A DNA stretch of 64,000 nucleotides, taken from Parabacteroides merdae ATCC 43184. Its GTDB lineage: Bacteria > Bacteroidota > Bacteroidia > Bacteroidales > Tannerellaceae. Location: NCBI RefSeq assembly GCF_025151215.1, contig NZ_CP102286.1, positions 4,216,001 to 4,280,000 of the forward strand, in the 5' to 3' direction. The position numbers and the translations under genes are program-made. Positions 1,994-35,974 of this stretch are shown here, piece by piece. The stretch's first letter is position 1. Each line of letters begins with the position of its first letter. The notes under the pieces are model-generated. The model was given only the letters and a program-made list of their open reading frames with translations, did no database searches and was not told the DNA's origin.

Positions 1994-1996
1994 AAA

Positions 1997-2057
1997 TTTA
2001 TGAATTCTGATTTATGATTTATGGGTTTCTAATAAATCATAAATCAGAATTCATAAA
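1997..2057. repeat. Perfect 25-bp inverted repeat (intergenic hairpin)
   Basis: The 25 bases at 1997-2021 are the exact reverse complement of 2033-2057, with an 11-base loop. It begins four bases after the receptor stop codon. The arms are AT-rich and each contains GAATTC. There is no T-tract, so it is not a classical terminator, though the length of the stem could end or protect the receptor mRNA. Confidence 0.85.
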
Positions 2058-2069
2058 TCATAAACCTCT

Positions 2070-2093
2070 CCTTAAATTTCCGCTCTCGGACAA
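2070..2093 (+). promoter_or_regulatory. Candidate HTCS operator upstream of the GH2 gene
   Basis: A 24-bp element beginning CCTTAAATTTCCGCT and ending GGACAA. It is almost identical (22 of 24) to 13351-13374 upstream of the lyase gene. Its end lies 52 bp before the GH2 -7 box, against 51 bp in the lyase promoter. Shared sequence at shared spacing in one PUL suggests the site bound by the local HTCS. The binding is an inference. Confidence 0.55.
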
Positions 2094-2145
2094 ATCTATC
2101 CATCCAATTAGACAAATTGTGCCTGTCTTTCTGCCGCCAATCACC

Positions 2146-2153
2146 TACTTTTG
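2146..2153 (+). promoter_or_regulatory. Bacteroides -7 promoter element for the GH2 gene
   Basis: TACTTTTG matches TAnnTTTG exactly and lies 26 bp before the chosen start codon. No clear -33 TTTG is seen at 19-20 bp, as expected for a promoter that needs an activator. Confidence 0.5.
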
Positions 2154-2179
2154 GCTCGTATATAAAGAATTTTGTAAAC

Positions 2180-4216: not shown

Positions 4217-4252
4217 TAATAGTTAGAATTTTTAAGGGAGGTGCCAAAATTC

Positions 4253-4303
4253 CTCTCTCTTGTCGGGAATTAATCCCCCGACAAGAGAGAGATTTCTTTT
4301 TTT
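4253..4303 (+). terminator. Intrinsic terminator of the GH2 gene
   Basis: A perfect 15-bp stem (4253-4267 with 4277-4291), a 9-base loop, then a T-rich run to 4303. It is placed between convergent genes and works best for the + strand. Confidence 0.85.
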
Positions 4304-4317
4304 GACATTCCCCTTTT

Positions 4318-5868
4318 TTATTCCTTCCCGTAAGGGATCAGCTCTTTCAGTATTTGTTCTTTATACCACGGATCGTCTGCTTCTTTCAGCAAGGGAACCA
4401 TCTGTTTGCATAAGTCGGATACGATTCCCTTATTCTCCTGCCAAGGGAGATTCTGCATCTGATACGGATCTTCCAGGTCATTAAACAAAAGGATGTCCTT
4501 GAGTTCTTTTGTCTTTCGGTCGATTGTGAGTGACATGGTATATTGATGTGTTTTGATCCCTCTCGACACCGGAAAATAAGAAATGACTTTTCCATCGGCA
4601 TCCTTTTCCCCATCGATATTTTTGATGTACAAGGCTCCCTGACGCAAAGGGACGGAAGAATCCTTTCCTGTAAAACGTCCCGCATAATTCCGCCCTTCCA
4701 CAGTGGCCGGAATCTGTTTTTCCAGACCGCACAGTCCGAGTATGGTCGGCATGATATCAGGAGAAGACAACAATAGTTCGCTGTCGATCCGAGGTATTAC
4801 TTTTTCAGGAAAACGAACTATGAACGGGACGTTCATGCTTTCTGCATAAGGTGAGTTTTTGGGATCGTCCGTATTTTGGCTGCACATGGTTTCTCCATGA
4901 TCGGAAGAGAAAATAACGAGGGTGTTCTTGTCCAATCCCTGTTTTTCGAGTTCGTCCAGTATTCGTCCGAAAGCCCGGTCGACACCTGTCACCGATGCAA
5001 AGTAATAACGTACGGATGGTGCTTTTTTCATTTCCCGGTTCGCATTCGGACGAATCAACAGGCTGTCCAGCGGTAGGTCTTTGTATAAGTTGTAATCTTC
5101 CTCCATGCAATCTTCCAGTGAGGCGTACGGACTGTGAGGCGGGTTGAAGCTGACCATCATAAAGAACGGCTTTTCAGGGTCCCGTACGTTCCCCTCATTC
5201 CGCAGATAGGAGATGGCTTTGTCTGCTTCATGTTCGGGCGACCACTCGTTTATCTCATGCTTGACGCCTTCGGTATCCCAATAGTGCGGATGCTTGTGGA
5301 CGTCATAGGTCCCGTACGAATACCAGTAATCGAAACCATGCCGGCGTTCTGCCGGCGTATAGGCATCCCAGGCCGGAACACGGTCTTCCACGTATTTTCC
5401 GGGACGTTCCGGGTCATTGGGAGTCGGGCAGTCGACATGCAGTTTCCCGATATAAGCACAGTTATATCCGGCTTGGCTGAACACGTCGCTAATGCAGGTC
5501 GCATCTTCGCGCAATGAACTGATCGGGCGGTTGGCATTACAGTTCAGAGGTACTCCGCTATGTTCCGGATACATCCCCGTCAACAATATTCCCCGATGCG
5601 GACTGCTCAGCGGGCAGTTGCTCATGGCCGAAGTCAGCACAACAGATTCTTTCGCAAACCGGTCCAGATTAGGCGTATGCACCGGATCTCCCTCGAAATT
5701 CACCGCATCCCGGAATCCTGCCTCTTTCCAGAAACCCATCGCATGGTTACGCATTTGGTCTGGAAAGATGTAGATGACGTTAGGAGTACTTGATTTTTGT
5801 GTTTTACATCCTAGTAAGGAGAATATAATCAAATTACTTAAATAGAAGTAGCGACTTTTATTTTTCAT
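4318..5868 (-). CDS. Ser-type arylsulfatase family lipoprotein
   Basis: Sulfatase of the alkaline-phosphatase fold, 516 residues. It begins with a lipoprotein signal (SLLGC, lipidated Cys21) and so is probably membrane-anchored. The formylglycine motif is S-S-P-H-R at Ser88-Arg92. It therefore needs an anaerobic radical-SAM maturase (anSME), which is not in this window. Metal-binding residues are seen in FPDQMR near the N-terminus and in SSDHGE in the middle. It is the last gene of the susC-susD-sulfatase-sulfatase operon and overlaps the preceding gene by 11 bp, which suggests translational coupling. It likely removes sulfate from an oligosaccharide imported by the locus. The exact sulfate position is not predictable by eye. 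Confidence 0.92.
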   Translation of the reverse strand: MKNKSRYFYLSNLIIFSLLGCKTQKSSTPNVIYIFPDQMRNHAMGFWKEAGFRDAVNFEGDPVHTPNLDRFAKESVVLTSAMSNCPLSSPHRGILLTGMYPEHSGVPLNCNANRPISSLREDATCISDVFSQAGYNCAYIGKLHVDCPTPNDPERPGKYVEDRVPAWDAYTPAERRHGFDYWYSYGTYDVHKHPHYWDTEGVKHEINEWSPEHEADKAISYLRNEGNVRDPEKPFFMMVSFNPPHSPYASLEDCMEEDYNLYKDLPLDSLLIRPNANREMKKAPSVRYYFASVTGVDRAFGRILDELEKQGLDKNTLVIFSSDHGETMCSQNTDDPKNSPYAESMNVPFIVRFPEKVIPRIDSELLLSSPDIMPTILGLCGLEKQIPATVEGRNYAGRFTGKDSSVPLRQGALYIKNIDGEKDADGKVISYFPVSRGIKTHQYTMSLTIDRKTKELKDILLFNDLEDPYQMQNLPWQENKGIVSDLCKQMVPLLKEADDPWYKEQILKELIPYGKE

Positions 5869-7391: not shown

Positions 7392-9107
7392 TTACCAGTT
7401 CGGATTTTGTTCTAAAGATCCATTTATTTCGATTTCAGTAGCAGGAATCGGCCACAGATAATCGCGATTTTCACGGAATACACGCGTCAACAACCGTTTA
7501 CCGGTGATACCGTATTCTTCACGGTTTAATAAAGTATGGGATAATTTCCAGCGGCGCAAATCGCTGTCACGAATACCTTCACCGGCTAATTCATAAGCTC
7601 TTTCACGGAAAATACGCTGGAACACTTCATCCTTGCTATTTGCAGCCAGATAAGAAGGACCGCTATTCAACAAAGCAATGCCGGCACGGGCACGGACTTT
7701 ATTGATATATTCGACAGCTTTTGGCTGATTCCCTATTTCATTGTAACATTCGGCCAACATCAGATAAACGTCCGCCAAACGGATGATCGGAAAGTTGACA
7801 GGTGTATGTTCACGGTTCGTAATAGCTCCGTTCCAGTCACCTTCGGGAACAAATTTTCTCCAGAAATAAGTTTCCCAACCCCCTTTATTATTACGCATGA
7901 AACCATTATTTTCATTTACTGCCACAACATCACCTTTCTGGTTCTTTGCAAAGATGAATGTCATTAGACGCTCCTCATTACGATTCCATCCCAGATAAGT
8001 AGTATAAGGAGCAATAACCGTAGCCATCAAACGCGGATCGCGCTGGTCCCACATCTCCAATACTTTATCCGCTTCGACCGGTCTGTCCAGAATTTCGGCA
8101 CCGGCATCATCGACTGTGCATCTGAATACTCGTTCACGAACCTGGTTATCTGTCGTATAACCAGGAAACAATTCGTCCCAATCAAACGGGCGTCCATCTT
8201 TGTATTCGTACATATCCACCAGGTTGACAGAAGGTAACGTATTATTCCAGCAGCTACCGTAAGAATTACGAGTACCGGCATAGAAACACAATGGCATACC
8301 ATAGTCATTGCCTGTACCTCCCAAATTGATAATGGAGAAAATCATTTCAGAACTTGTATGGCCAGTCAGGTTGAACAGATCTGCAAAATTACTGTACAGT
8401 TCGTGCCCGTTTGTTGACTTTTCAAGATTTTCAATAGCCTTTTCGTAGTTCTTATTATAAAGATACACCTTGCCGAGCAATGCCTGGACAGCTGTCAATG
8501 TTACACGGCCATAGTTAGCATCATCCCATTTGTCAGGCAGCCCTGAATTCAGAGCCTTTTCCAGATCACTGATAATAAACGCCCGTGTTTCTTCTGCAGA
8601 ACTTCTGGGTTTCATCAAGTTGTTGAAATCCTGTTCCAGGTTTGTTGTCTCGTCATACAAAGGAAGCCCTCCGAAATAGTCCATCAGATGGAAATAGATC
8701 AACGCACGTAAGAAATGGGCTTCCCCCAACATTTTGTTTTTTGCGTCTTCGGCAATGGGTGCTTCACCAATGCTGCGAATAGCCAGATTGGCACGCTGGA
8801 CGGCATTGTAACCGTTCTGCCATTTGCCATTCAAGAAGCCGGTACGTGGTGTACAAGTACCCAATTGAAGAGCTTCATACTGGTCATAACCAACGGCAAC
8901 ATCAGAATTCACGTCAATCATGAACATCTTGCCATACAAATCAGTATTTTTTAGGGACGCATAAACCCCCATCAAACCAGACTTACATTGATCCTCTGTC
9001 TGCCAGAAGGTTGAAGAACTTAACTGGTCGTAAGGAGCCCTGTCTAAATCATAGCAGCTTGTCAATGCCAAGAGTGCTGCTAAAAAAGGCATAATATATT
9101 TTTTCAT
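7392..9107 (-). CDS. SusD-like glycan-binding lipoprotein
   Basis: Surface lipoprotein that caps the SusC channel and binds the glycan, 571 residues. It has a lipobox LTSC (Cys18), then the SusD N-terminal tetratricopeptide-like region (FLRALIYFHLMDYFGGLPLY, typical of the family) and the SusD/RagB C-terminal domain (FRERAYELAGEGIRDSDLRR). The length is normal for the family. It begins 34 bp downstream of the susC-like gene. The glycan cannot be read from sequence alone, but neighbours suggest an acidic sulfated polymer. Confidence 0.95.
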   Translation of the reverse strand: MKKYIMPFLAALLALTSCYDLDRAPYDQLSSSTFWQTEDQCKSGLMGVYASLKNTDLYGKMFMIDVNSDVAVGYDQYEALQLGTCTPRTGFLNGKWQNGYNAVQRANLAIRSIGEAPIAEDAKNKMLGEAHFLRALIYFHLMDYFGGLPLYDETTNLEQDFNNLMKPRSSAEETRAFIISDLEKALNSGLPDKWDDANYGRVTLTAVQALLGKVYLYNKNYEKAIENLEKSTNGHELYSNFADLFNLTGHTSSEMIFSIINLGGTGNDYGMPLCFYAGTRNSYGSCWNNTLPSVNLVDMYEYKDGRPFDWDELFPGYTTDNQVRERVFRCTVDDAGAEILDRPVEADKVLEMWDQRDPRLMATVIAPYTTYLGWNRNEERLMTFIFAKNQKGDVVAVNENNGFMRNNKGGWETYFWRKFVPEGDWNGAITNREHTPVNFPIIRLADVYLMLAECYNEIGNQPKAVEYINKVRARAGIALLNSGPSYLAANSKDEVFQRIFRERAYELAGEGIRDSDLRRWKLSHTLLNREEYGITGKRLLTRVFRENRDYLWPIPATEIEINGSLEQNPNW

Positions 9108-9141: not shown

Positions 9142-12100
9142 TCAGAATGTTACATTGACACCGATTACGGCTTGTCGCATTGTCGGATATGTAATGCCGT
9201 CGATTTCAGGATCATATCCTTTCCACTTTGTGAATGTAAAGAAGTTTTCCAAACTACCGTAGATTCTGACTCTATCCATATAGGCAACTTTTGTCCATGC
9301 CGAAGGCAATGTATATCCCAACGTAATATTTCGTATTTTCAGATAAGCTTTGCTTGCCACCCAAAAATCAGAATATTGCTCATTACGCGTATCACTATAG
9401 TCCAACAGACGGGGATATTTCGCATCTGTACGGCCTTCGTACCAACGTCCTTCGATTATATCAGCGTTCAACTGATAGCCCTGACGGACTGTTGATTTAT
9501 ACAGGGCACTCAGATATACATCTTTTATACCTGCTTGTCCCTGGAGCAGAGCAGAGAAATCGATGCCTTTCCAATTGAATCCCAAGTTCATACCATATGT
9601 GAATGTCGGGTTTTTACCATTACCGACAACAACACGGTCGTCATCATTTACCAAACCGTCACCATTCAAATCCTTGTAAAGGATATCACCTTTTTGCGGG
9701 GTTCCATATGGGAATACAACTTTACCTTTCACATCCGGATTATCCAACATAGACTGTACCAAAGCCAAGTCTTCATCTGTCTGAACAATACGATCTACTT
9801 CGCGAACATACAACGACCAGATAGGCAGGCCTTCCTTCAACATTCTTGCACCATCATAAGAAGGATCATCCCCTTTGAACTTATCCACGTTATTTTTGAT
9901 ATAGGTAAAGTTGAATCCGATGTTATAAGAGAAATCTTTACCAGCTCTGTCACTCCAGTTTGCAGAGAATTCAAGACCTTTATTGGTTACTTGCGCTGCG
10001 TTTTGCTTGGGGATGGTAGCATTACCGTGTACCATCGGGGCAGGAAGGTCGATCAAGATGCCATCCGTCTTCTTGTTAAAGAATTCAATACTTCCGGACA
10101 GACGGTTTCCTAAAACGTTATAGTCAAGACCGACGTTTGTGATATAAGTAGTTTCCCATGTCAAGGCTGCATTCGCGATAGCAGTTTGCGACAATCCCAT
10201 TGCCACTGCACGAGCCAAGACATAGTTCGTTTGTGCATACAAAGATTGTGAAGTATAGTTGCCATCGTTATCGCGGTTAGAGCCTAACGTGTTGTTCCCC
10301 AGTGAACCGTATGAAGCACGGATCTTCAAGTTATCCAACCAACTGATATTCTTCATGAATTCTTCTTCAGAGATACGCCATGCTGCAGAAAAAGACGGGA
10401 AATACCCCCACCGGTTATCAGCCAAAAAACGCGAAGAACCATCTGCACGTAAGTTTGCTTCAAACAAGTATTTGTCGTCCCATCCTAAATTCAGACGTCC
10501 GAAGTAAGAACGCATAGCCCATTCTGTAATATTACCGGTTGAAGAAGATTCACCGATTGCACCGTCGATCACACCCAATGATGGATCAATAAGATCTTTG
10601 CGTGTTGCACTGAAATATTGGCGTTTATACTGTTCCTGGCTGGCTCCGACCATCAAGTTCGTACTCAAACGATCATCAAAGAAGTTTCGTTCATATCGTA
10701 TAGTCGCATCCATAAAGTTTCTGAAAGTCTTTTCATTATAATTATAAATGCTGGTTTGTCCCACTCCGTCCGTATATAAAGTATTCGTTTGGAAGTTATA
10801 CATCGGAACAAAATTAGGTTTGCTCTCTTTAAACTTATCATAATAATCATAAGTATAAGAACCTTGAATCGTTAAACCTTTCAATGGCGTCAGAATGGCA
10901 TACAAACGGGTTTTCAATGTATTTGTCTGGACATTACCAGTCGTGTTTCTCAGACGATTATAAGGATTGTTCGTTGCATTTTGAGGATCGTCTTCCGCAT
11001 TTGCATTGATACCTAATCTGTTTTGATCATCCAAATATGCAATACCCGGATTTCCACCAGTTAAACCATAAGTATAAATATCTTTGATATTTTCGCTGAC
11101 AGGTGTCGTATTTGCGGTATATCCACTTAGATTAACTCCCAACTTCAACCAATCTTTAATTTGAGAATCAATATTCGCACGGAGACTAAAGCGCTCATAG
11201 CCACAATTTTCAAGGATACCCGGATTATTCAGATAATTGAACGAGGTGTAATAGGTAATCTTCTCTGAACCGCCGGATGCAGACAGATTATGTTGATGAG
11301 AAACACCTGTTTCATAGACATCAAAAATGTCACTGTTCGGGTAAGCCAGATAGTTAGGCATGCCATATTCGTTCAATCCGTTCGGATCTTTCGATTTTTC
11401 ACGCCAAAGATTGATCACATTCTGAGAGAAAGGAGCCGGCTTATTACTATTGGTCATACCTTCATTCAGGTATTCCATATAGCTTGCATAATCGGAAACT
11501 ACATCATAAGGCTTATCCAACGTTTGGAAAGATACATAACCCGTATAATCCAACTTCATTTTACCGGATTTACCGGATTTAGTCGTAATCAAGATAACAC
11601 CGTTGGCTGCACGGGAACCATAGATCGCAGATGAAGCCGCATCCTTCAAGACACTGACTGTTTCGACATCCTGCGGGCTGACACTATTCAGGCTGCCTTC
11701 CACACCGTCGATAATGACCAGAGGCGAAGAGTTGTTCAAAGTACCCTGACCACGCACCTTAATATCTGCATCTCCATTATTGGACGGAATATTGTTGCTG
11801 GACGTGATTTGCACACCGGGAGCAGTACCGGCCAAAGCTGTTGAAATGTTTGTCAATGGGCGGCTTTCTGCCATTTCACTGACATTAACGGATGTAACAG
11901 AACCAGACAGGTTAACTTTTTTCTGCGTACCATAACCTACAACTACAACTTCTTCCAATGCTTGTGAGTCTTCAGTAAGTTTGATAGTAACGGTTTTCTG
12001 GCTATTTACCGGAATCTGTTGTTCTTTGTATCCGATAAATGAAACAATTAAAATAGAGTTAGGCGCGACTTCAAGAGAAAAATTACCATCCATATCGGTA

Positions 12101-12345
12101 ATAGTTCCATTAGTTGTCCCTTTTTCCACCACGTTTGCACCTGCAATAGGTCCAAACTGATCTTCTACCACACCTTTAATAGTGTGTTTTGCCTGTTGAG
12201 GAGAAGCTACAACAGGATTCGGCTCATTTGAGCCAAACGTATCGGTAGAAGGATTAGCGGAGGCCATTCCGATTGATGCCAGGAACATAGTAGCTCCCAG
12301 GAACATCGCTCTCGATACATAAAAGCGTTTAAAATCTTTTGTCAT
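9142..12345 (-). CDS. SusC-like TonB-dependent outer-membrane transporter
   Basis: TonB-dependent importer of oligosaccharides, 1067 residues. It has a signal peptide (about 1-30), a carboxypeptidase-regulatory-like domain (about 55-128), the SusC segment VVVVGYGT at 133-140, a plug domain (DVETVSVLKDAASSAIYGSR), and a 22-strand barrel ending in VIGVNVTF with the C-terminal Phe needed for BAM recognition. It is first in its operon. Upstream lies an 810-bp segment bounded by inverted repeats (see 12451-13260), so expression may be phase variable. The SusD partner lies 34 bp downstream. Confidence 0.96.
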   Translation of the reverse strand: MTKDFKRFYVSRAMFLGATMFLASIGMASANPSTDTFGSNEPNPVVASPQQAKHTIKGVVEDQFGPIAGANVVEKGTTNGTITDMDGNFSLEVAPNSILIVSFIGYKEQQIPVNSQKTVTIKLTEDSQALEEVVVVGYGTQKKVNLSGSVTSVNVSEMAESRPLTNISTALAGTAPGVQITSSNNIPSNNGDADIKVRGQGTLNNSSPLVIIDGVEGSLNSVSPQDVETVSVLKDAASSAIYGSRAANGVILITTKSGKSGKMKLDYTGYVSFQTLDKPYDVVSDYASYMEYLNEGMTNSNKPAPFSQNVINLWREKSKDPNGLNEYGMPNYLAYPNSDIFDVYETGVSHQHNLSASGGSEKITYYTSFNYLNNPGILENCGYERFSLRANIDSQIKDWLKLGVNLSGYTANTTPVSENIKDIYTYGLTGGNPGIAYLDDQNRLGINANAEDDPQNATNNPYNRLRNTTGNVQTNTLKTRLYAILTPLKGLTIQGSYTYDYYDKFKESKPNFVPMYNFQTNTLYTDGVGQTSIYNYNEKTFRNFMDATIRYERNFFDDRLSTNLMVGASQEQYKRQYFSATRKDLIDPSLGVIDGAIGESSSTGNITEWAMRSYFGRLNLGWDDKYLFEANLRADGSSRFLADNRWGYFPSFSAAWRISEEEFMKNISWLDNLKIRASYGSLGNNTLGSNRDNDGNYTSQSLYAQTNYVLARAVAMGLSQTAIANAALTWETTYITNVGLDYNVLGNRLSGSIEFFNKKTDGILIDLPAPMVHGNATIPKQNAAQVTNKGLEFSANWSDRAGKDFSYNIGFNFTYIKNNVDKFKGDDPSYDGARMLKEGLPIWSLYVREVDRIVQTDEDLALVQSMLDNPDVKGKVVFPYGTPQKGDILYKDLNGDGLVNDDDRVVVGNGKNPTFTYGMNLGFNWKGIDFSALLQGQAGIKDVYLSALYKSTVRQGYQLNADIIEGRWYEGRTDAKYPRLLDYSDTRNEQYSDFWVASKAYLKIRNITLGYTLPSAWTKVAYMDRVRIYGSLENFFTFTKWKGYDPEIDGITYPTMRQAVIGVNVTF

Positions 12346-12429: not shown

Positions 12430-12461
12430 CAAAAGTGTGTTACTGATCTAAGTTCTTCAAG
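12430..12461 (-). promoter_or_regulatory. Possible weak promoter for the susC operon
   Basis: On the minus strand, CACTTTTG (7 of 8 to TAnnTTTG; 12430-12437) is preceded after 20 bp by CTTG (3 of 4 to TTTG; 12458-12461). The -33 part falls inside the left inverted repeat of the putative inverton, so inversion would change little of it. It is an alternative to the phase-switch model. Confidence 0.3.
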
Positions 12462-12599
12462 GACTATGGCGTTTCGCCATCATCCGCGAATTGCCTTCAC
12501 CGCTTATGTTTGCCTTCATCAGAGACCAGGTCGGCCTCGGAAGATTCTATATTAAGTGACAATGGGTATGTTTCTGTTGTCAAACAGCCTGGTCATAGA

Positions 12600-12688
12600 C
12601 CTTTTGCCTTTAGTCGAATACCTTTTCGACCAAGGTCAAAAGCCTTTTCGACACTGGTCAAAAACCTTTTCGCCCTTAGTCAAAAAGG
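12600..12688. repeat. Four tandem ~22-bp iterons inside the invertible segment
   Basis: Copies start at 12600, 12621, 12643 and 12665, so the period is 21-22 bp. Each begins CCTTTT and ends near GTCAAAA, and the middle copies read CCTTTTCGAC...GGTCAAA. Each unit is itself nearly dyad-symmetric (TTTTCGAC against GGTCAAAA). Two helical turns per unit would put bound proteins on one DNA face. Confidence 0.75.
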
Positions 12689-12842
12689 TAAGGAGTGGTA
12701 GTAATAGCTGTTAATGCCTGTGTATTTGTTTATTAATCAATATTGTAGTCTCCTTGTTTTTCACTTAATTATATAGATGTGAAACCGAGAGGAACATGAC
12801 CAACCCAAATCAGGACGAGACAGAGTGAAGGCAAATTTTTGA

Positions 12843-12873
12843 GGTGAAGGCAGTCCGGATATCTGCCTTCACC
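12843..12873. repeat. 11-bp perfect hairpin inside the invertible segment
   Basis: GGTGAAGGCAG (12843-12853) pairs with CTGCCTTCACC (12863-12873) around a 9-base loop. Copies of the TGAAGGCA core also occur at about 12826 and, inverted, at about 12491 and 12511. No T-tract follows, so a protein site or structured leader is more likely than a terminator. Confidence 0.6.
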
Positions 12874-13222
12874 CTTGTATGACATGACAATCAAAAGGTA
12901 TCAAAGACGGGTGAAGCTGAATCGGAAATCCATGTTGAACTATCATGATGATAAATCATCATTTATGATTCATATCTGCCAAACTATGAGAATTTGCCTT
13001 AGCTGTATCGTTTTTACACTTCAATGTATACCTATGTGAATATTACAAACTGAATTCTAAATAAATATATTGCCAATTAAGCTTAATTTATATGTTATAC
13101 AAAACATGCAAATCACAATATGTTAATATATAGACATTTAACACATTGCTAAAAACTCACCGTTGGAAGATTAGTGCATATCAAATGGATAAAAATATAC
13201 ATTCATACACATTATTAACATC

Positions 13223-13230
13223 TAAATTTG
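13223..13230 (+). promoter_or_regulatory. -7 element at the right end of the invertible segment, pointing to the lyase gene
   Basis: TAAATTTG matches TAnnTTTG exactly and ends 15 bp before the right recombination-like site. It faces the lyase gene in this orientation and would face susC after inversion. No good -33 box is seen. Confidence 0.4.
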
Positions 13231-13350
13231 CAACGTTTTCATCATAGTTCTTGAAGAACTACGATAAAAATACTCTTTTGTGAAAGGTGCATATAGAAAA
13301 ATGCAAGGTTCCGGTTTTGGAGGATGAGAATTATAATGTGGCAGGAAACA

Positions 13351-13454: not shown

Positions 13455-15383
13455 ATGAGAACACAACGATTCATCACAATCGTGTGCCTGTTGCTTTGGA
13501 CAGTCGCACACTTGCACGCGTATGAAAAACGCGACTTGTTGCAAAAAGAGGTCGATTTTGAGAAAGTCAAATCCGCGTTGATAATGGAGCAGAAGTGGGT
13601 GCCGTATCCTGATTATTCTGACCGGGCCGGTTGGGATAAACTCCTCGGTGATTATAAAGAAAAGTATATCCGGAAAGGAGAAAGTTATCTGGATTATGAG
13701 TGGAAGGTTGTGAAAGCGACCGATTATCTGGAGTTCGGACGAAGTGGTGACCGGGCGATTATGGAGAGTCCGTTCGGTAAAAACAATTCCGCACTCGGAA
13801 GTCTGTTCATGGCAGAGATGGCTGAAGGGAAGGGACGCTTTGTCGATCAGATTATCAATGGTGTTTTTGCAAGTTGTGAAATGACGAGCTGGGCATTGTC
13901 GGCCCATTTGGGATTACAGAAGGTCGGAGGATGCTTTCCGAGCTATGAAGAACATGTGATTGATTTGGGTTCAGGAAATCTTGCTTCCCAGTTGTCTTGG
14001 ATTTATTATTACCTGAAACCTTCGTTCGATAAGGTAAATCCTTTGATTTCAAAAAGGCTGCGGCATGAATTACAGGTCCGCATCCTCGATACCTATATGA
14101 ATGAAGATCATTTCTGGTGGATGGCGTTCAACCTGAAGCCTGGCGGATTGGTGAATAACTGGAATCCGTGGTGTAACTTCAATGTGCTGCAATGTTTCTT
14201 CCTGCTTGAGAATGATCGGGATAAATTGGCAAAAGCGGTTTACCGGACGATGACTTCCGTGGATCATTTCATCAATTATACGCATGGAGACGGAGGTTGC
14301 GAGGAAGGCCCTTCTTATTGGGGACATGCTGCTGGAAAGATGTACGATTATCTGCAGATGCTTTCTGACGGGACAGGTGGTAAAGTCTCCGTATTCGATC
14401 AGCCTATCATTAAGAATATGGGTGAATATATTGCCCGCTCTTATGTGGGGAACGGCTGGGTGGTCAACTTTGCCGATGCTTCTGCCAAAGGAGGAGGGGA
14501 TGCCGATCTCATTTTCAGGTATGGGAAAGCAGTCGAAAGCCCTCTTATGATGAACTATGCTGCTTATCTCAAGAGTCTTTCTGATAAGGACGGTATTCCT
14601 TCCGGTGACCCTTTCCGTCTGTTCCAAACCTTGCTCTCCCGTGAAGAACTGGAAGGAATGAGTGCAGATTATCAGGCTCCCGGCTATTCCTGGTATCCGG
14701 AAACCGAATTTTGCTATATGACCAACAAGAATGGCTTTTTCGTGGCAACGAAAGGAGGCTATAATAATGAAAGCCATAATCATAACGATGCAGGGACCTT
14801 CTCCCTTTACTTGAATACGACGCCTATTTTTATCGATGCCGGAGTCGGGACCTATACCCGTCAGACCTTCAGTTCCGAACGCTATTCAATCTGGACAATG
14901 CAGAGTAATTATCACAACCTGCCTATGGTGAACGGTGTGCCACAGCAGTTCGGTTCGGAATTTAGGGCTACGGATGTGCACTTTGATTCGAGACGTATGT
15001 ATTTCTCTGCAAATATTGCGACAGCTTATCCGGCAGAGGCAAATGTAAAAAAATGGGTCCGTTCGTACCAGTTGGGAAAGAACTCCCTGAAAATAGAAGA
15101 TTCGTTCTCTTTGGACAAGGCGGATAAACCGAATCAAGTCAATTTCCTCACTTGGGGGGAGGTGGATGTGTCGGTTCCGGGAGTAGTCACGGTTGAAGTG
15201 AATGGTGAGAAAGTCCGGATGACGTATAATAAGAGCGCCTTTACACCGACTGTCGAAACGATCCGCCTGGACGATCCTCGCTTGTCGAATGTTTGGGGCG
15301 AACAGGTCTGCCGGATATCGTTGAACGCTAATAAGCAGCCGCTTTCCGGCTCCTATACTTATACAATAACAACAATAAAATAA
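13455..15383 (+). CDS. Heparinase II/III-family polysaccharide lyase
   Basis: Secreted lyase that cleaves uronate-containing polysaccharides by beta-elimination, 642 residues. It has a signal peptide ending near HLHA (about residue 22), an N-terminal all-helical toroid (about 60-400) and a C-terminal beta-sandwich of the heparinase II/III type. The family hallmark NHNDAGTFSLYL begins at about residue 442 (His443, Asp445 visible) and is followed by FIDAGVGTYT. It resembles the PL12/15/21/33 group of lyases, and I cannot assign the number by eye. The GH88 gene starts 8 bp downstream, and GH88 acts on exactly the unsaturated products that such a lyase makes. Heparan, chondroitin or hyaluronan are all possible substrates. 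Confidence 0.9.
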   Translation: MRTQRFITIVCLLLWTVAHLHAYEKRDLLQKEVDFEKVKSALIMEQKWVPYPDYSDRAGWDKLLGDYKEKYIRKGESYLDYEWKVVKATDYLEFGRSGDRAIMESPFGKNNSALGSLFMAEMAEGKGRFVDQIINGVFASCEMTSWALSAHLGLQKVGGCFPSYEEHVIDLGSGNLASQLSWIYYYLKPSFDKVNPLISKRLRHELQVRILDTYMNEDHFWWMAFNLKPGGLVNNWNPWCNFNVLQCFFLLENDRDKLAKAVYRTMTSVDHFINYTHGDGGCEEGPSYWGHAAGKMYDYLQMLSDGTGGKVSVFDQPIIKNMGEYIARSYVGNGWVVNFADASAKGGGDADLIFRYGKAVESPLMMNYAAYLKSLSDKDGIPSGDPFRLFQTLLSREELEGMSADYQAPGYSWYPETEFCYMTNKNGFFVATKGGYNNESHNHNDAGTFSLYLNTTPIFIDAGVGTYTRQTFSSERYSIWTMQSNYHNLPMVNGVPQQFGSEFRATDVHFDSRRMYFSANIATAYPAEANVKKWVRSYQLGKNSLKIEDSFSLDKADKPNQVNFLTWGEVDVSVPGVVTVEVNGEKVRMTYNKSAFTPTVETIRLDDPRLSNVWGEQVCRISLNANKQPLSGSYTYTITTIK

Positions 15384-29201: not shown

Positions 29202-31211
29202 TTACTCTCCAAGCCAAAATGGGCCTTGAACCAATGTTGGATCCTTATCTATTTCTGATTGATGTATCGGATACCAATAGAATTTGCGAGGATAAACACG
29301 ATCCATGTATTTTGTGCGTTTGAAGAAGGCGTTGTCTCCTTGATCAGTATATTCGGTTCCATAATAATTCATCCCATAATCCGGTCCATTGACACCCCAA
29401 TCTGGATTTTCACCCTGCTCATTTAGGTTTCCGATGCCATAATGGGCTGTTTTCCAGCGACGCAAATCATGGTAACGAACTCCTTCACCCACAAATTCTA
29501 CTCGGCGTTCTTTGTGTATCAAACGTCTTACCTCTTTCTGGTCTGAGAAATTGATCTTAATGCGGGTAAAACCATTCTCATCCGTGCCAGTTCCATATTC
29601 GGCAATACCAGCCCGATGGCGAATCTTATTCAAATTGTCGAGTATTTCTTGTTTGTGGCTCATGCGTTCTGAACTTTCATTTAATGCTTCAGCATAACTT
29701 AGATAAGCTTCTGCCATGCGGAAAATGATAGCCGGACGATAAGGGTGATTGTTATCACGAGGTATATAATCCAATGATACTCGACTACGATTTAAATAAC
29801 CGTTTTGCGGAGCATCGTGTGTTGGTCCTCCGTCCGGTTGTCCATACAAAAAGTTCGTATTACGGTTTTCCCATTTGAACCATTGTCCATTCCATACTAC
29901 AGTCAGGTAAAAACGAGGTTCCCGATGGCAATACATATTAAATGTGTTGGGTTGTACAATCAAGCGTTTCCCGTCTCGTTCCGGTGTAACGTCAGGGTAA
30001 TTACTATCATTGTACCCATCCATTAAATAATAATCGGTTGCCCTATATTCGGGTTTTGTAGAAAATCCCTTCTCACTATATAATGGCGCATTCGGATTGA
30101 TTTTCGGACTACCGTCCGCATTATATCCCAGTATAGGTTCCGTTCCGTCTTCCATAAAGAAAGCATCTACCAGTGATTGAGTAACTCCTAAGCCTCCATT
30201 ACCGCCGCAACCGCGAGGAGTTCCGTGCTGTTCCCAATCTCCGTAATTTCCTTTAGGTCGGAACCAAATGATTTCATTGTTACCCTCTCCTTCTGTTCTC
30301 ATTGTGGCTCCGTAACAGGACATGAAGGGATCCACTTTGCCGTTTTCTTTGTTATTTACGATATACAACCCCTTTCCTTTTTTCTCGGCTTCATCGATCA
30401 GCTGCTTACATGCGTCAGCTGCTTTTTTCCATTTGTTGGCATCATAAGCTTGGCTGAAACGTTCTTCTCCGTCAGAATTTTTAAAGCCGAGATACCATTC
30501 ATTTCCATTTACTAACGGACTTGCTGCAAATAGCAATATGCGGGCGCGAAGCGCCAATGCTGCCAATTTAGTTGCGCGACCACCATACAACGTACTCCAA
30601 CTGTCCGGAAGGACTTTCGACAATTCTAAAAATTGATTATCCAGCCAGTCGATCATCCATTCAAAGCTTTTCTGACCGCGCATTAGATCCGGAGAATCCG
30701 AAGTCATATCATCTTCAAAATAAGGGACTGCTCCATAAGCCAAGGTCATCATCCAATAGTAATACGCAACCATGAAACGACATTCGTTTTTCATTGTCTC
30801 CACGTCACTCTCCGTTACGTTTTGTTTTGGTAAAGCCTTTACGTTATCCATGAAAATATAGGCTTGTCGAATATATTTGGACATTGTCCAATAGGATCCG
30901 CTCCAACCTGAATTAGGTTCCCATTGTCCTACGCGAAATCCTAATCCGCAGTCACTACCCCAATATGGTAACCAGCCTTGCGATGGAGTGATATCGTTTG
31001 CCAGCATCTCGAACGCATCGTAACGCGTATAATCCCAGTATGGATCCCGAATGCCTTGGTATACACCTGCTAGCCAATCTTCCGTACGAGTCTTGTCGTC
31101 GAATATCATGTCTATTGTAATAATATCGTCTGGTGCATTGTCTATAAAATCCGTGCATCCATTTAAGCACATACATAATGTCGCTAAACCAATATACTTG
31201 CTAAATTTCAT
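29202..31211 (-). CDS. SusD-like lipoprotein of the orphan SusCD pair
   Basis: Surface glycan-binding lipoprotein, 669 residues. The ATG at 31211 is used because it is followed by MKFSKYIGLATLCMCLNGC with lipidated Cys19. It has a SusD/RagB fold with the C-terminal signature AEAYLSYAEALNES and RRVEFVGEGVRYHDLRRW. It is about 100 residues longer than the first SusD here. It is 19 bp downstream of its susC. No enzyme or regulator gene is adjacent, so the substrate is open. Confidence 0.94.
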   Translation of the reverse strand: MKFSKYIGLATLCMCLNGCTDFIDNAPDDIITIDMIFDDKTRTEDWLAGVYQGIRDPYWDYTRYDAFEMLANDITPSQGWLPYWGSDCGLGFRVGQWEPNSGWSGSYWTMSKYIRQAYIFMDNVKALPKQNVTESDVETMKNECRFMVAYYYWMMTLAYGAVPYFEDDMTSDSPDLMRGQKSFEWMIDWLDNQFLELSKVLPDSWSTLYGGRATKLAALALRARILLFAASPLVNGNEWYLGFKNSDGEERFSQAYDANKWKKAADACKQLIDEAEKKGKGLYIVNNKENGKVDPFMSCYGATMRTEGEGNNEIIWFRPKGNYGDWEQHGTPRGCGGNGGLGVTQSLVDAFFMEDGTEPILGYNADGSPKINPNAPLYSEKGFSTKPEYRATDYYLMDGYNDSNYPDVTPERDGKRLIVQPNTFNMYCHREPRFYLTVVWNGQWFKWENRNTNFLYGQPDGGPTHDAPQNGYLNRSRVSLDYIPRDNNHPYRPAIIFRMAEAYLSYAEALNESSERMSHKQEILDNLNKIRHRAGIAEYGTGTDENGFTRIKINFSDQKEVRRLIHKERRVEFVGEGVRYHDLRRWKTAHYGIGNLNEQGENPDWGVNGPDYGMNYYGTEYTDQGDNAFFKRTKYMDRVYPRKFYWYPIHQSEIDKDPTLVQGPFWLGE

Positions 31212-31230
31212 TTTTTTATTTTTTTTATTT

Positions 31231-34200
31231 TTAGAAATTAATATCAAAACCTGCTGAAAATGATTTCATTATCGGGTATTTTGTTCCTACGGATGTGTCG
31301 ACTTCAGGATCCCATAAGTCAAATTTTGAGAATGTGAACAGATTACTACCTTTTGCATATAAACGAATGTTCGACAGGCCAATTTGTCGTACCCAAGATT
31401 TCGGGAGCGTATAGCCGATCTCTATATCTTTCACTCGGAGAAAACTCATGTTTTCCAACCACCATGTAGAGTTTCGAACATTATTCTCGCTTTTCCCCCA
31501 TGTCAAACGTGGGTAATATACATCTTGGCTTGGATTTTCAACGGTCCAACGGTCTTGATAGTTAGTCAGGATATTTCCCATGGCCCCCATTGTTTCACCA
31601 GGGGTAAACTTGTTGCTGCATCCTCCTTTAAATCCGTATGTCATCCCATTCCCTTGGAAGAATATGTTAAAATCTAGATTCTTATAGCGAAAATTGGCAC
31701 CGAAGCCGTATACGATCTGAGGGTTGTATGTTCCTCCTATGGCAGTCTCGTCCAATGAACTGACAACGCCATCCCCATTCACGTCTTTATATTTGATGTC
31801 ACCGGGGCGAACCGGACCGAATGTATGGGTAGGAATATCCTCGTTTACAACGTAACCGCCATTCTCGGCAATCAGATAATCTCCGTTGGCATCTTTTTGG
31901 AAATCATCAAAAGTAAACAGGCCTTCGTCGACTAATCCAAATAACTGGTTGACTTTTTCGCCTGTCCGTTGACGATTCGTCCCCATGACGCCTAATGCCT
32001 CATCCTGTTCGATGATTTTGTTCTGGGCGTATGTAAAAGATCCCCGGAAGCCGACGTATAAATCTTTATTGATTTGTTTGTTTACGTTTAATGCTAGGTC
32101 GATCCCCTGATTATTTACTTTCCCATAATTAGCCCATGGTGTATTTCTAAATCCTGCTGATGTCGGAATATTATTTCGTTTCATAAAGATATTATATCTG
32201 TGTTCAAAGAAATAGTCCACTTGGAAGTCGATCATATTCCAGAGGCCCAATTCGAAACCTGCATTTGTTTTCGATACGGTTTCCCATGTCAGATTAGGAA
32301 TTCCGAAATCACCTTCAAAGCGAGAATTCCGATGATAATATTGTCCGTTGGTTCCCCAGTCATAACCCGTTCCGTCTTCTCCCAATGTTGTCTGGTAAGC
32401 AAAGCGACGTCCGTCTAATTGGTCGTTCCCTGTCAAGCCGAATGAACCACGAAACTTGATTTTGCTGAACGTGTCTTTGTATGGTTCCATGAACTTTTCT
32501 TCCGAAAGCAAGTAACCAATTGCTACGGACGGGAAAAATCCGAAGCGATATCCTTTGGCAAAATTCTCTGATCCGTTATAACCGAAATTAAATTCTGCAA
32601 TATATCGATTGTCATATGTGTAAGATGCTCGTCCGGCGATACCCATGCGGCGATAAGGTACGATGTCGTACGATTCTTCAAATTGCTGGTAATCCCGTTG
32701 GTTATACAAGAACAAACCTTCAACCTGATGTTTCCCGAATGTCCTTTCATAATTCAAATTCAGTTCTACATAAGTTGCTTTGTTTCCCCAATCATTATTT
32801 TCGGAAGTGCTCAAAAATTGTTGTCCGTAACTGGATATGTTCAAAATTAAATTACCATTTTCATCGCGTTGGGTAGCCGGTTGATACAAGTCTGGTGTTT
32901 TTGAACGAGTAACGCCTGACCAAGAATAGCGATCAAATGAGAAAATACCCTTTATTTTCAGTCCAGGAGTAATAAATTTCAAATCTTGCTCTAATGCGAA
33001 CAACGATTCGATTTTACTTTGAGAGGTTGTTGCATATCCTTTTTGAGTAACCTGTACGTACGGATTCACTCGTTGATTGACTACTGGAAAATAGATATTA
33101 TCATCTTCTTTATAATAGGCCGGATGTATGAATGGAGGGGTCTCGAATGCTCCCGAAAATGCATCATCGGAAGATATTGCCATTTTATTCATCTCCTGTA
33201 AATAGCCACCGACACTGACTGTCAATTGCGTTGTTTTTGTGATATTGATGTCTACATTCGAGCGTAAGTTGAATTTGTTTAGATGTGTTCCACTGTTCCA
33301 ACTTTGACTCTTGTCGCGTTCGAAAATACCTTGTTCGCCATAATATGATCCGACCACTGCATAGCGTAAAATGTCAGAACCTCCGTTGACAGTAATATCT
33401 GCACGTTGATTCATGGCAAAATCTTTCGTAATCAGATCCATCCAATTTACATCCGGGTATAAATCCGGATCAGTTCGATTTATGTAGTGATCAATGGTTT
33501 CTTGCGAATAGGGAGATTGCTGTTGACCGTTATCTTTTGCTATTTCATTCAATAATGTCAGATACTCTGCTGAACCGATGTATTGGGGTAATTTTGTTGG
33601 TTGAGTAAAACTTTGTTCGAAATGGACATTGACTGTAGGTTTTCCTAATTTCCCACGTTTAGTTTGCACCAAAATAACGCCGTTTGCTCCACGTACACCA
33701 TAAACGGCTGAAGCAGATGCATCTTTTAACACAGAAAATGATTCGATTTCAGCAGGGTTCAAGTCATCGAGTGTTCGTTCGATGCCGTCGACTAATACTA
33801 AAGGACTGGTTCCTGCTCCTTGGAAAGATGAAATACCTCGTATCCAGAAATTGGAACCGTCCGCTCCCGGTTCTCCTGATCGTTGCACGGCAATTACACC
33901 TGCCACATTTCCCGCCAAGTTGTTACTTAAGGCACGTGTTGTCCCTTGGCTTAATACCTGAGGCTCGATTGTTGTAATCGAACCTACTATCGATGCACGT
34001 TTTTGAGAGCCATAGCCGACTACTACCACTTCATTCAAGCCTGTCGAAATTTCGTGCATGTTCAAGTTTATGTTGATTTGGTTACCAACAACAATTTCCT
34101 GCTCTTCAAATCCAATGTAAGTGAATACTAGTATAGAACTTCGACTTGGAACTTCTAAAAAATAGTTGCCATCTATATCTGTTGTTGTACCTATCGTTTG

Positions 34201-34425
34201 TCCTTTTATTACAATATTCACTCCAGAAAGTGGTTCTCCCTGGGAATCTCGTACTGTACCATTTATATGGATCCCTTCTTCTGTGAGTTTTTTAACAGTA
34301 GGGATTATTTCCTTTTCATGTCTATCTAACCATTTGCCATTGGCATGAAGATAATTTGTACCTGATAGCAATGCACACACGATACATGTTAATTGCAATT
34401 TTTGATTTAATTCATTTTTGATCAT
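31231..34425 (-). CDS. SusC-like TonB-dependent transporter of the orphan pair
   Basis: Outer-membrane importer, 1064 residues. It has a signal peptide (about 1-28), a carboxypeptidase-regulatory-like domain (about 52-128), VVVVGYGS at 133-140, a plug with ESFSVLKDASASAVYGVRGA, and a barrel ending KSFSAGFDINF with C-terminal Phe. No promoter-like sequence is seen in the 150 bp directly upstream on its strand. The only good promoter lies in a putative invertible segment at 34573-34864 and points away, so the gene looks silent in this sequence. Confidence 0.95.
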   Translation of the reverse strand: MIKNELNQKLQLTCIVCALLSGTNYLHANGKWLDRHEKEIIPTVKKLTEEGIHINGTVRDSQGEPLSGVNIVIKGQTIGTTTDIDGNYFLEVPSRSSILVFTYIGFEEQEIVVGNQININLNMHEISTGLNEVVVVGYGSQKRASIVGSITTIEPQVLSQGTTRALSNNLAGNVAGVIAVQRSGEPGADGSNFWIRGISSFQGAGTSPLVLVDGIERTLDDLNPAEIESFSVLKDASASAVYGVRGANGVILVQTKRGKLGKPTVNVHFEQSFTQPTKLPQYIGSAEYLTLLNEIAKDNGQQQSPYSQETIDHYINRTDPDLYPDVNWMDLITKDFAMNQRADITVNGGSDILRYAVVGSYYGEQGIFERDKSQSWNSGTHLNKFNLRSNVDINITKTTQLTVSVGGYLQEMNKMAISSDDAFSGAFETPPFIHPAYYKEDDNIYFPVVNQRVNPYVQVTQKGYATTSQSKIESLFALEQDLKFITPGLKIKGIFSFDRYSWSGVTRSKTPDLYQPATQRDENGNLILNISSYGQQFLSTSENNDWGNKATYVELNLNYERTFGKHQVEGLFLYNQRDYQQFEESYDIVPYRRMGIAGRASYTYDNRYIAEFNFGYNGSENFAKGYRFGFFPSVAIGYLLSEEKFMEPYKDTFSKIKFRGSFGLTGNDQLDGRRFAYQTTLGEDGTGYDWGTNGQYYHRNSRFEGDFGIPNLTWETVSKTNAGFELGLWNMIDFQVDYFFEHRYNIFMKRNNIPTSAGFRNTPWANYGKVNNQGIDLALNVNKQINKDLYVGFRGSFTYAQNKIIEQDEALGVMGTNRQRTGEKVNQLFGLVDEGLFTFDDFQKDANGDYLIAENGGYVVNEDIPTHTFGPVRPGDIKYKDVNGDGVVSSLDETAIGGTYNPQIVYGFGANFRYKNLDFNIFFQGNGMTYGFKGGCSNKFTPGETMGAMGNILTNYQDRWTVENPSQDVYYPRLTWGKSENNVRNSTWWLENMSFLRVKDIEIGYTLPKSWVRQIGLSNIRLYAKGSNLFTFSKFDLWDPEVDTSVGTKYPIMKSFSAGFDINF

Positions 34426-34572
34426 GTTTTTTACGGAATTATAGATTTTACGTTAACTGTTGTTACTTTTAACTGTGTTCTTTTTTTGTTTTTATCCCAT
34501 AGGCTATTTTTTATTGATTATGAATTTCTACTTTAAGCATATTATTTAACTAATTATCTAAATGATGTCTCC

Positions 34573-34864
34573 ATAGTCCTTGAGGAACTATGGAACTTAT
34601 ATATAGAAAGAATCTTATTATTCAATGTCTTAAATGTATGAGGAGTGGAAATTGTTATCATTACAATGTCTTTTTTGACATAGGAGAAAATTATTTTATT
34701 CCTATTGTTTTAAATGTTGAATTTATTTTGTAAAAAAAGTTGCTCATGTTAAATGGATTGTTTACGTTTGCAAAAACGTAGTATTTAATATACTCTATTA
34801 TTAAGTTTTTTTTCTGAAAGCTTTTTGTTATTATGGTGGAATTCCATAGTTCCTCAAGAACTAT
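34573..34864. other. Putative invertible promoter segment upstream of the orphan susC
   Basis: The left site AGTCCTTGAGGAACT (34575-34589) and right site AGTTCCTCAAGAACT (34848-34862) both fit AGTYYYN4GDACT. The arms extend to 23 bp (34573-34595 and 34842-34864) with one mismatch, including a perfect 17-bp core. The enclosed 250 bp carries a -33/-7 promoter pointing rightward, away from susC. Size, motif and promoter all match Bacteroides susC phase switches, here in the OFF state. Confidence 0.75.
34739..34770 (+). promoter_or_regulatory. Promoter inside the invertible segment, facing away from susC
   Basis: GTTG (34739-34742), 20 bp, then TACGTTTG (34763-34770), a full -7 match with 3 of 4 in the -33. 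After inversion it would read into susC with a leader of about 240 bases. Confidence 0.65.
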
Positions 34865-35101
34865 AGTTTGTTTATTATAGTGAGATGCAACGTTCTTTTT
34901 TGTATTAAAACCACGTATGTTGCCGGATCACCACATGGTCGGTTGTGCAGATATTTGGCTCTGTACGTCTCTTACCTCCCGAGTTTCGAGAGGCTGTTCA
35001 AGTTGTTTTTAACATTCAATACCTATTTTGCATATATCTGTGTGCGCTCGGTATTTAAAAGATACGCATTCTCTTGTGGCAAAAGCAAATGGTAGGAAAA
35101 T

Positions 35102-35134
35102 AAAAAGCCCCGCTATTCCTAAGAATAACGAGGC
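35102..35134 (-). terminator. Intrinsic terminator of the Gly-Leu-Gly tRNA operon
   Basis: A 12-bp stem (35107-35118 with 35123-35134) forms two G-U pairs on the minus-strand RNA but C-A mismatches on the plus strand, and T5 follows on the minus strand. This fixes its direction. It may also block rightward transcripts from the OFF promoter only weakly. Confidence 0.85.
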
Positions 35135-35146
35135 CTTTTGGAAGCG

Positions 35147-35219
35147 AGCGGAAGACGGGACTCGAACCCGCGACCCTAACCTTGGCAAGGTTATGCTCTA
35201 CCAACTGAGCTACTTCCGC
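35147..35219 (-). tRNA. tRNA-Gly (GCC)
   Basis: A 73-base cloverleaf with acceptor GCGGAAG/CTTCCGC, anticodon loop CTTGCCAAG region with GCC, and T-arm GGTTCGAGTCC. CCA is not encoded. It is identical to 35351-35423. Confidence 0.97.
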
Positions 35220-35244
35220 AAAATATTGTTTGCTCAAACTTGTG

Positions 35245-35329
35245 TACTCGAAGCGGGACTTGAACCCGCACAGCCGCAATGGCCAAAGGATTTTAAGTCC
35301 TTCGTGTCTACCGATTCCACCATTCGAGC
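35245..35329 (-). tRNA. tRNA-Leu (TAA)
   Basis: An 85-base class II tRNA with long variable arm. The acceptor is GCTCGAA/TTCGAGT, and the anticodon loop CTTAAAA gives TAA. Confidence 0.96.
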
Positions 35330-35350
35330 ATCCCTTTCTCTTAAGAGATG

Positions 35351-35423
35351 AGCGGAAGACGGGACTCGAACCCGCGACCCTAACCTTGGCAAGGTTATGC
35401 TCTACCAACTGAGCTACTTCCGC
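35351..35423 (-). tRNA. tRNA-Gly (GCC), second copy
   Basis: A 73-base cloverleaf identical to 35147-35219. It is first in the tRNA operon, just after the promoter at 35452-35482. Confidence 0.97.
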
Positions 35424-35451
35424 ATTGTTGCATTGTTTTCGTTTGCGAGTG

Positions 35452-35482
35452 CAAAGGTAGATGAAATTTTTGTTTCTGCAAA
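35452..35482 (-). promoter_or_regulatory. Consensus promoter of the tRNA Gly-Leu-Gly operon
   Basis: On the minus strand, TTTG (35479-35482), 19 bp, then TACCTTTG (35452-35459). Both boxes are perfect. Transcription should start about 20 bases before the first tRNA. Confidence 0.85.
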
Positions 35483-35518
35483 TATTTGGAATAAAAAAAT
35501 GCAGGGCAACGCATTTTT

Positions 35519-35974
35519 TTAGTTTCTCACAACCCATTCCTGTCTGTCGGACGATACTGGAGTCATGTAATATTTTCTTAATGGAAATTGCGATACGCCC
35601 TTTGTCGGTGCTCCGGTCCCATAGCCGATATCATATTCAGTTCCGCATTCCGGGCAAATTGCTTTTCCTGCATTGTCGGCTTCTATGATGATATTCTTTT
35701 TGGCTTCGTGGGGACAGCACAGATCAAATGCATAGTAGGTCGCATTTCCGTAATTGTCGATTCCGCATACAACCAAAACACCGGAAAAGCCCGTCTTTTC
35801 TCCGGCAGTACGGGCTTTAGTGATGGATTTGTGATTGTATATGCCTACTAGATCTTTGTCGCCGAAGCGCAGGTCTAGTTCTAAATATACCGGTGCATAG
35901 GGTATATCCGATTCTTCGAATTTGGAACACGAACAAACTAATGATATAAGTAAGCAAAATAAAAACCGTTTCAT
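35519..35974 (-). CDS. Rieske-like iron-sulfur lipoprotein, unusual cluster motif
   Basis: A 151-residue exported lipoprotein (lipobox ending CSC, Cys16) with a small beta domain. The potential cluster ligands are C-P-H (Cys87, His89) and, 17 residues later, C-P-E-C (Cys107, Cys110). A true Rieske site is CxH...CxxH, so the last His is replaced by Cys. This would give a 3Cys-1His site or a Zn site. It is last in the pyrE-SRPBCC-argH operon, 6 bp after argH. Function unknown; electron transfer is only a guess. Confidence 0.7.
   Translation of the reverse strand: MKRFLFCLLISLVCSCSKFEESDIPYAPVYLELDLRFGDKDLVGIYNHKSITKARTAGEKTGFSGVLVVCGIDNYGNATYYAFDLCCPHEAKKNIIIEADNAGKAICPECGTEYDIGYGTGAPTKGVSQFPLRKYYMTPVSSDRQEWVVRN

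Follow-up and report, generated by a model that had tools for sequence, protein, structure and literature searches.

Our results indicate with good confidence that the segment at positions 34573-34864 of the window, by which we mean the whole stretch of 64,000 nucleotides of Parabacteroides DNA that was analyzed, is an invertible promoter switch of the neighbouring SusCD pair, and from the sequence we infer both that this segment flips and that susC is silent while the switch stands, as it probably does in the assembly, in its OFF orientation. The type of switch is already known; it is its place at this SusCD locus that is new. The segment is bounded by two inverted arms of 23 nt, the left one on the susC side (34573-34595, plus strand) and the right one at 34842-34864 (minus strand), which pair with one mismatch (96% complementarity) and enclose a putatively invertible interior of 246 nt (34596-34841). 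Within the arms lie two predicted recombination-site cores of 15 bp, AGTCCTTGAGGAACT at 34575-34589 (plus strand) and AGTTCTTGAGGAACT at 34848-34862 (minus strand), with the same central 5 nt, TTGAG. Both 15-mers match AGTYYYN4GDACT exactly and on both strands, and the arms and sites described in the original prediction were recovered at these positions. That prediction also took the motif for a recognition class; both sites fit it, but searches of the open-licence literature turned up no paper that gives the motif. The window holds 9 matches to the motif against 0.59 expected, a number reached by none of 100 shuffled sequences.

SusCD transporters are exposed at the cell surface and set which glycans and peptides gut Bacteroidales cells import. 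The Pfam domains of both proteins support the pair proposed at 29202-34425, which consists of a susC-type TonB-dependent transporter of 1064 aa (31231-34425, minus strand; CarbopepD_reg_2 and Plug) and a susD-type protein of 681 aa (29202-31247, minus strand; SusD_RagB and SusD-like_3). Judged by its Pfam-tested neighbours this is an orphan pair, having on one side an oxidoreductase (Fer4_20/Pyr_redox) and a DHODB_Fe-S_bind protein and on the other a Lyase_1 protein, with the small ORFs 35055-35537 and 35519-35974 lying outside that test. Three tRNA genes, on the strand opposite to the promoter and about 280 nt to the right of the segment, separate it from the Lyase_1 gene. Among named sequences the SusC protein is nearest to one from an uncultured Parabacteroides (83%), and the protein cluster that contains it has 4706 member sequences.

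Inside the inverted repeats lies a promoter of the Bacteroidales type, GTTG-N20-TACGTTTG (34739-34770, plus strand), with GTTG at 34739-34742 and, after a spacer of 20 nt, TACGTTTG at 34763-34770, directed rightward and away from susC. Published consensus sequences are TTTG and TANNTTTGY for Bacteroidales promoters (PMC8748976) and TAnnTTTG for the -7 element (PMC4747536); the -33 element found here, GTTG, is a near match of TTTG and not TTTG itself. As had been claimed, TACGTTTG points away from susC, being the sole TAnnTTTG on either strand within 34300-35150, and no such box faces the gene: the susC strand of 34426-34864 holds three boxes with one mismatch, none of them with a TTG 19-21 nt upstream. 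When the interior was shuffled under a Markov model (5000 replicates), some TAnnTTTG arose in a fraction of 0.47 of the sequences, and in 0.056 such a box was accompanied by a spaced TTG, so that the promoter by itself is merely suggestive. With the promoter turned towards intergenic DNA and convergent tRNA genes, SusCD most likely stands OFF. This state follows from the direction of the promoter and the lack of a susC-facing box, and is helped by a homologous promoter that the sister species (G013) carries in this same orientation; to that extent the proposed OFF state is probable. Since the far side carries tRNA genes on the other strand, the segment looks like a plain ON/OFF switch.

The argument for inversion draws on a genome-wide set of similar site pairs. 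The 15-bp motif alone carries little meaning, as it is about as frequent as its reversed control in the genome holding the window (G000; 88 matches versus 81) and in G013 (81 versus 103), and we dropped the motif count alone as proof. Enrichment was present, in contrast to the bare motif, for inverted pairing and for the extended site AGTYCTN3AGRACTAYGGY, which with one mismatch allowed had 24 matches versus 1 for the control in G000 and 22 versus 2 in G013. More than 3 matches to this extended pattern were found in two of 295 genomes sampled across the order, G000 (24) and G059 (8), both belonging to the genus, and at least 11 matches in 8 of the 35 genus members sampled. Collecting simple segments from the fetched neighbourhoods of 18 motif-bearing places and from the window yielded at least 13 of them in G000, 183 to 810 nt long and with near-identical inverted cores (L060, with two overlapping site choices, being counted as one segment), in addition to one SusC shufflon pair of 1235 nt. 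For the dyad-like sites of L062, L065, L068, L069, L070 and L073 a partner within 1.6 kb was not found.

We compared 31 segments, 13 from G000, 12 from G013 and 6 chosen from a second relative (G020), whose site pairs had been chosen for near identity, a choice that favours no particular position of the site. The central 5 nt were identical within the pair in 31 of 31 pairs from the three species and varied among pairs, and the 12 mismatches between paired sites fell at position 4 (10), position 11 (1) and position 12 (1), with none in the central 5 of the 15 positions. Strand exchange by tyrosine recombinases requires site centres to be identical. An outward TAnnTTTG starting 28-46 nt from one end was found in 20 of the 31 segments against a mean of 1.09 in 1000 shuffles (sd 1.03, maximum 5), the range having been picked after the positions were seen and cross-species homologues being counted repeatedly, not as independent cases; three of the 31 segments contain no TAnnTTTG at all. 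The promoter of the 34573-34864 segment is atypically placed: the distance of its TACGTTTG from the end of the segment is 100 nt, and 90 nt for the counterpart in G013, outside the 28-46 nt of most of the set. We also considered the distinct central 5-mers of all 13 G000 pairs as an addressing code and dropped the idea: random draws give 13 distinct 5-mers in 15% of trials when they follow the column frequencies and in 75% when they are AT-rich, so that this distinctness is no evidence for a code.

Nine of the 13 simple G000 segments are flanked by a SusC-type ORF, which at L063 is 1.2 kb distant. The promoter points away from SusC in six of these nine (L061, L063, L067, L072 and both loci in the window), towards a SusC in two (L060 and L075) and in both directions in one (L071). 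Genes on the opposite side include a GH78 rhamnosidase (L061), a heparinase-like gene (13455 in the window) and a second SusC (L060), and the remaining members of the set lie by genes for a sigma factor and GH127 (L064), GH2 (L066), a sigma factor and FecR (L074) and a sigma factor (L076). At L063, two minus-strand ORFs (1550-3988, 812 aa; 4005-4772, 255 aa) lie left of the segment at 957909-958281, and the DNA at 4030-4800 is similar to SusC N-terminal regions, which suggests a SusC gene split in two frames and faced by the present promoter orientation. The L074 segment (4716-5057; G000:4132715-4133056), which has no TAnnTTTG, overlaps the start of a FecR-type ORF (4845-5792), and its flip would cut or reverse the start of that gene.

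Comparison of 18 loci of G013 and G020 with G000 gave 11 with an alignable interior, the counterpart segment being absent for six and present without an alignable interior for one (L190). The interior has the same orientation in eight of the 11 (L182, L184, L185, L186, L187, L189, L192 and L196, with L192 judged through its promoter module) and is inverted in three, at two loci (L191, L195 and L197). In view of these three inverted comparisons we consider that the site class very probably flips. The cleanest case is L197 of G020 against L075 of G000, where an interior of 154 nt is 99.4% identical and inverted between outer flanks that are collinear over about 40 nt (88%) and 108 nt (99%); flipping the G000 segment in silico raised the matching columns against L197 from 259 to 337. 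In the L197 stretch (G020:C4:375500-381000) the L075 segment is present as a copy that has short flanks and is not followed by a SusC ORF. Contig C4 ends at a further site match, and the SusC most like that of L075 begins at the edge of another G020 contig.

The other locus with inverted comparisons lies in the window itself. A second segment of the class (12451-13260, sites AGTTCTTCAAGGACT and AGTTCTTGAAGAACT, plus strand) is flanked on the left by a susC-type gene (9142-12345, minus strand) followed by a susD-type gene (7392-9107, minus strand) and on the right by a heparinase II/III-like gene (13455-15383, plus strand), all three identified by Pfam. Its TAAATTTG, at 13223 on the plus strand, points rightward in G000, away from susC and towards the heparinase-like gene, whereas in G013 and G020 it is directed at the left-hand susC. 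Taken by itself, the interior is inverted with respect to both relatives (comparisons L191 and L195), with 82% identity over 503 nt to G013 and 81% over 185 nt to G020, while the left leader is collinear with that of G013 at 95% over 105 nt and with that of G020 at 86% over 92 nt. The right flank (13261-13337) has a weak likeness to the inverted left leader (68% over 69 nt), and longer matches therefore extend beyond the site. As G013 and G020 share one orientation, this counts as one difference and not two. Two divergent SusC genes flank the segment in G013, and two SusC-like stretches do so in G020, an arrangement that by its layout would make it an either/or switch in these species; right of the segment the window holds no SusCD but the heparinase-like gene instead. 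The window SusC is 79% identical to the right-hand and 57% to the left-hand SusC of G013, and 96% identical over 714 residues to the left-hand SusC of G020; the flanking SusC genes have been exchanged between slots.

At the 34573-34864 locus the two species that carry it agree in orientation. Its leader was found in G000 and G013 only among 38 genomes of the genus, with 82% identity over the first 79 nt in G013 (three further matches of 28-58 nt being ignored). The G013 susC is 97% identical to that of G000, and its arms, which are 29 nt long, 93% complementary and 112 nt apart, enclose a promoter CTTG-N20-TAATTTTG with the same direction as in G000. A flipped (ON) copy was not found in these sole holders of the locus among the 38 genomes, in both of which the promoter faces away from susC. 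Upstream of the susC relatives we found no site pair in 27 named loci (of 28, L010 lying outside the scan) over up to 1800 nt, some stretches being shortened by contig ends, nor in five further stretches (L112-L116), and of the 30 search loci two, this one and its G013 counterpart, have one; G006, whose susC is 84% identical, has no motif match within its stretch. Viral contigs gave no match to one exact 29-base pattern or to the SusC protein, and the matches listed from plasmids (20 of 124 records) and phages (all 18 records) cover only the last 103 of the 901 query bases, at the terminator-like/tRNA end. The switch appears to be of recent origin and restricted to this pair of sister species. 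The proposed comparison with relatives found the arms kept in G013 but in the same orientation, and the site pair missing from the other susC relatives scanned.

A single orientation in both species, together with the atypical offset of the promoter, is what one would also expect of a locked relic, in which the arms once recombined but no longer flip and susC is either silent or read from a fixed promoter in its leader (34426-34572). That leader does contain a susC-facing sigma-70-like match outside the segment (GTAACA-N17-TATAAT, 34466-34438); such matches occur near the chance rate (6 found versus 3.7, sd 1.9), and the sigma-70 consensus differs from the Bacteroidales TTTG/TANNTTTGY reported in PMC8748976. 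Against a relic, the arms have been kept at 96% (G000) and 93% (G013) though the interiors, of 246 and 112 nt, align only over a homologous module of 67 nt (67%, E 3e-6) that holds the promoter, and in this module the -33 and -7 elements are conserved while the n positions of TAnnTTTG have changed (TACGTTTG/TAATTTTG). We therefore regard a relic as unlikely. The common direction in two species and the tRNA genes some 280 nt to the right would likewise fit a promoter meant to read rightward, to make a non-coding RNA or to affect the tRNA cluster, with control of susC incidental. This is very unlikely: the right-hand stretch aligns with G013 only from 35058 on, the tRNA genes are on the opposite strand, the sole plus-strand ORF of at least 90 aa to the right of the segment (35028-35351) overlaps them, and a terminator-like hairpin (35139-35102) is on the minus strand and at the chance rate (1 found versus 0.8). 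Each site is an imperfect palindrome, and the left one folds as single-stranded DNA weakly better than shuffles (z -2.08, 9 of 200 as good), which would suit operators of a transcription factor or hairpin/attenuator elements. That reading of the repeats is most improbable: the near-exact inverted pairing at 13 places, the central 5 nt that are the same within and different among pairs, and the interiors inverted between species all fit recombination sites. Membership in a set with shared site anatomy, with other members inverted between species, leaves the invertible-promoter reading well supported; the claim of a phase-variable promoter made in the original prediction gains from both, and what speaks against it includes the atypical offset, the missing flipped copy of this locus and the lack of such site pairs at the other susC relatives scanned.

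For an invertible promoter we propose that a tyrosine recombinase acting in trans would recognise the two inverted sites, each a dyad AGTYCT-N3-AGRACT to whose inner end AYGG is often joined, and that strand exchange at the central nucleotides, identical in both sites of a pair, would flip the 246-nt interior. In the ON orientation the promoter would drive susC-susD with a leader that by the coordinates is some 235 nt long, and in the present one it would face the intergenic stretch and the convergent tRNA genes. The enzyme is likewise deduced from sequence: G000 has 23 integrase-domain matches, some being fragments of a single gene, and the best candidate for the set is an integrase of 402 aa (L039, G000:229912-231117) that adjoins the SusC shufflon. 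The shufflon, with sites CCAGAGTCTTTGCAGAACT (1235 nt; L181 1922-3156 = G000:223921-225155, and L059), has one site at about codon 68 of a susC ORF and an ORF of 937 aa starting just past the other, and ORFs of SusC and SusD size (by length only) lie near L039 in 14 of 15 stretches, the exception being G006. Of the 8 site-rich genomes 7 have an intact full-length orthologue (no stops, at least 64% identity), as do 6 of the 27 site-poor ones; the Fisher test gives P = 0.0017 and a Mann-Whitney test of the site counts P = 0.019, both inflated by shared ancestry. Among the remaining site-poor genomes four have stops in the L039 match (one of these, G022, has also a second copy, 56% identical, without stops), seven a distant or partial match and ten no match. 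The association has exceptions on both sides: the site-rich G004 has no match at E 1e-60, and L039 is intact despite few sites in G001, G007, G015, G016, G025 and G029. Outside the genus, three of the 295 order genomes have a weaker match, and no NCBIfam model matched L039 above cut-off.

The recombinases profiled against site counts were L039, L037 and L046, several others looking by eye like mobile-element integrases. Integrase L037 (330 aa) was rejected, since among the 8 site-rich genomes only G000 and G013 have a match at E 1e-60, and so was L046 as master enzyme, since 13 of the 14 genomes tested have a related protein (E 1e-80) irrespective of sites. XerC and XerD were named by NCBIfam, XerC slightly below cut-off; as the site-free G006 also has both, by score and length, the presence profile cannot judge them. 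L046 is more than 90% identical only in G013, G021, G023 and G016, and about 300 bp upstream of it, between L046 and a dnaK-like ORF (by eye), lies the class site of L069, adjoined by ORFs that by eye resemble those of conjugative elements. The near-palindromic class sites at G000:2143073 and G000:2192397 (L068 and L069) are in inverted order and 49 kb apart, and could mark the two ends of an integrative element using the same site class.

Inversions affecting SusCD orthologues have been reviewed (PMC12632263), and reports exist of invertible regions near SusC/SusD genes (PMC10939037) and of inversion sites in Parabacteroides distasonis (PMC5903667). A close layout is that of Bacteroides fragilis, in which Tsr0667 acts on three SusC/SusD clusters and a further nine regions, inverting them (PMC4747536), the SusC/SusD inversions that depend on it in strain YCH46 being those of Nakayama-Imaohji 2009, as cited in PMC4747536 and PMC12632263. 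Both systems have SusC/SusD targets and many dispersed regions, with shufflons as well as simple ones, and in G000 related sites occur at the SusC shufflon (one of them in the 5' coding part of susC) and at 13 simple segments; the likeness is between Bacteroides and Parabacteroides and is one of target layout. The shufflon at G000:223921-225155 resembles the intergenic shufflon of region EE in B. fragilis NCTC 9343, whose repeats overlap the ragA/susC starts downstream of an invertible promoter (PMC5729914); 34573-34864, by contrast, is a simple switch that has two sites and one SusCD, with no alternative gene pairs. Inverton group 131 (PMC11892184) also comprises invertible segments beside TonB-dependent receptor and SusD genes, a likeness of target genes, and the main text of that paper does not mention Parabacteroides. 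The capsule promoter inversions of P. distasonis (PMC12118408) are promoter inversions in the same genus, but their 17-bp inverted repeat, GCTACTYRGNRAGTAGC, and their capsule targets differ from those of 34573-34864. Among the matches listed from the open-licence literature (titles and starts of abstracts) we found no description of this locus or of the set.

A wider proposal, which we consider possible but less likely than not, is that one conserved integrase beside the SusC shufflon runs at least 13 promoter switches, several of them two-way (a SusCD operon versus a divergent heparinase-like or GH78 gene, or a second SusCD), and so sorts cells into takers and degraders. If one enzyme serves the set, a single knock-out should freeze all members. 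With at least 13 promoter switches that share a site class, a common gut Parabacteroides would vary in nutrient range from cell to cell without mutation.
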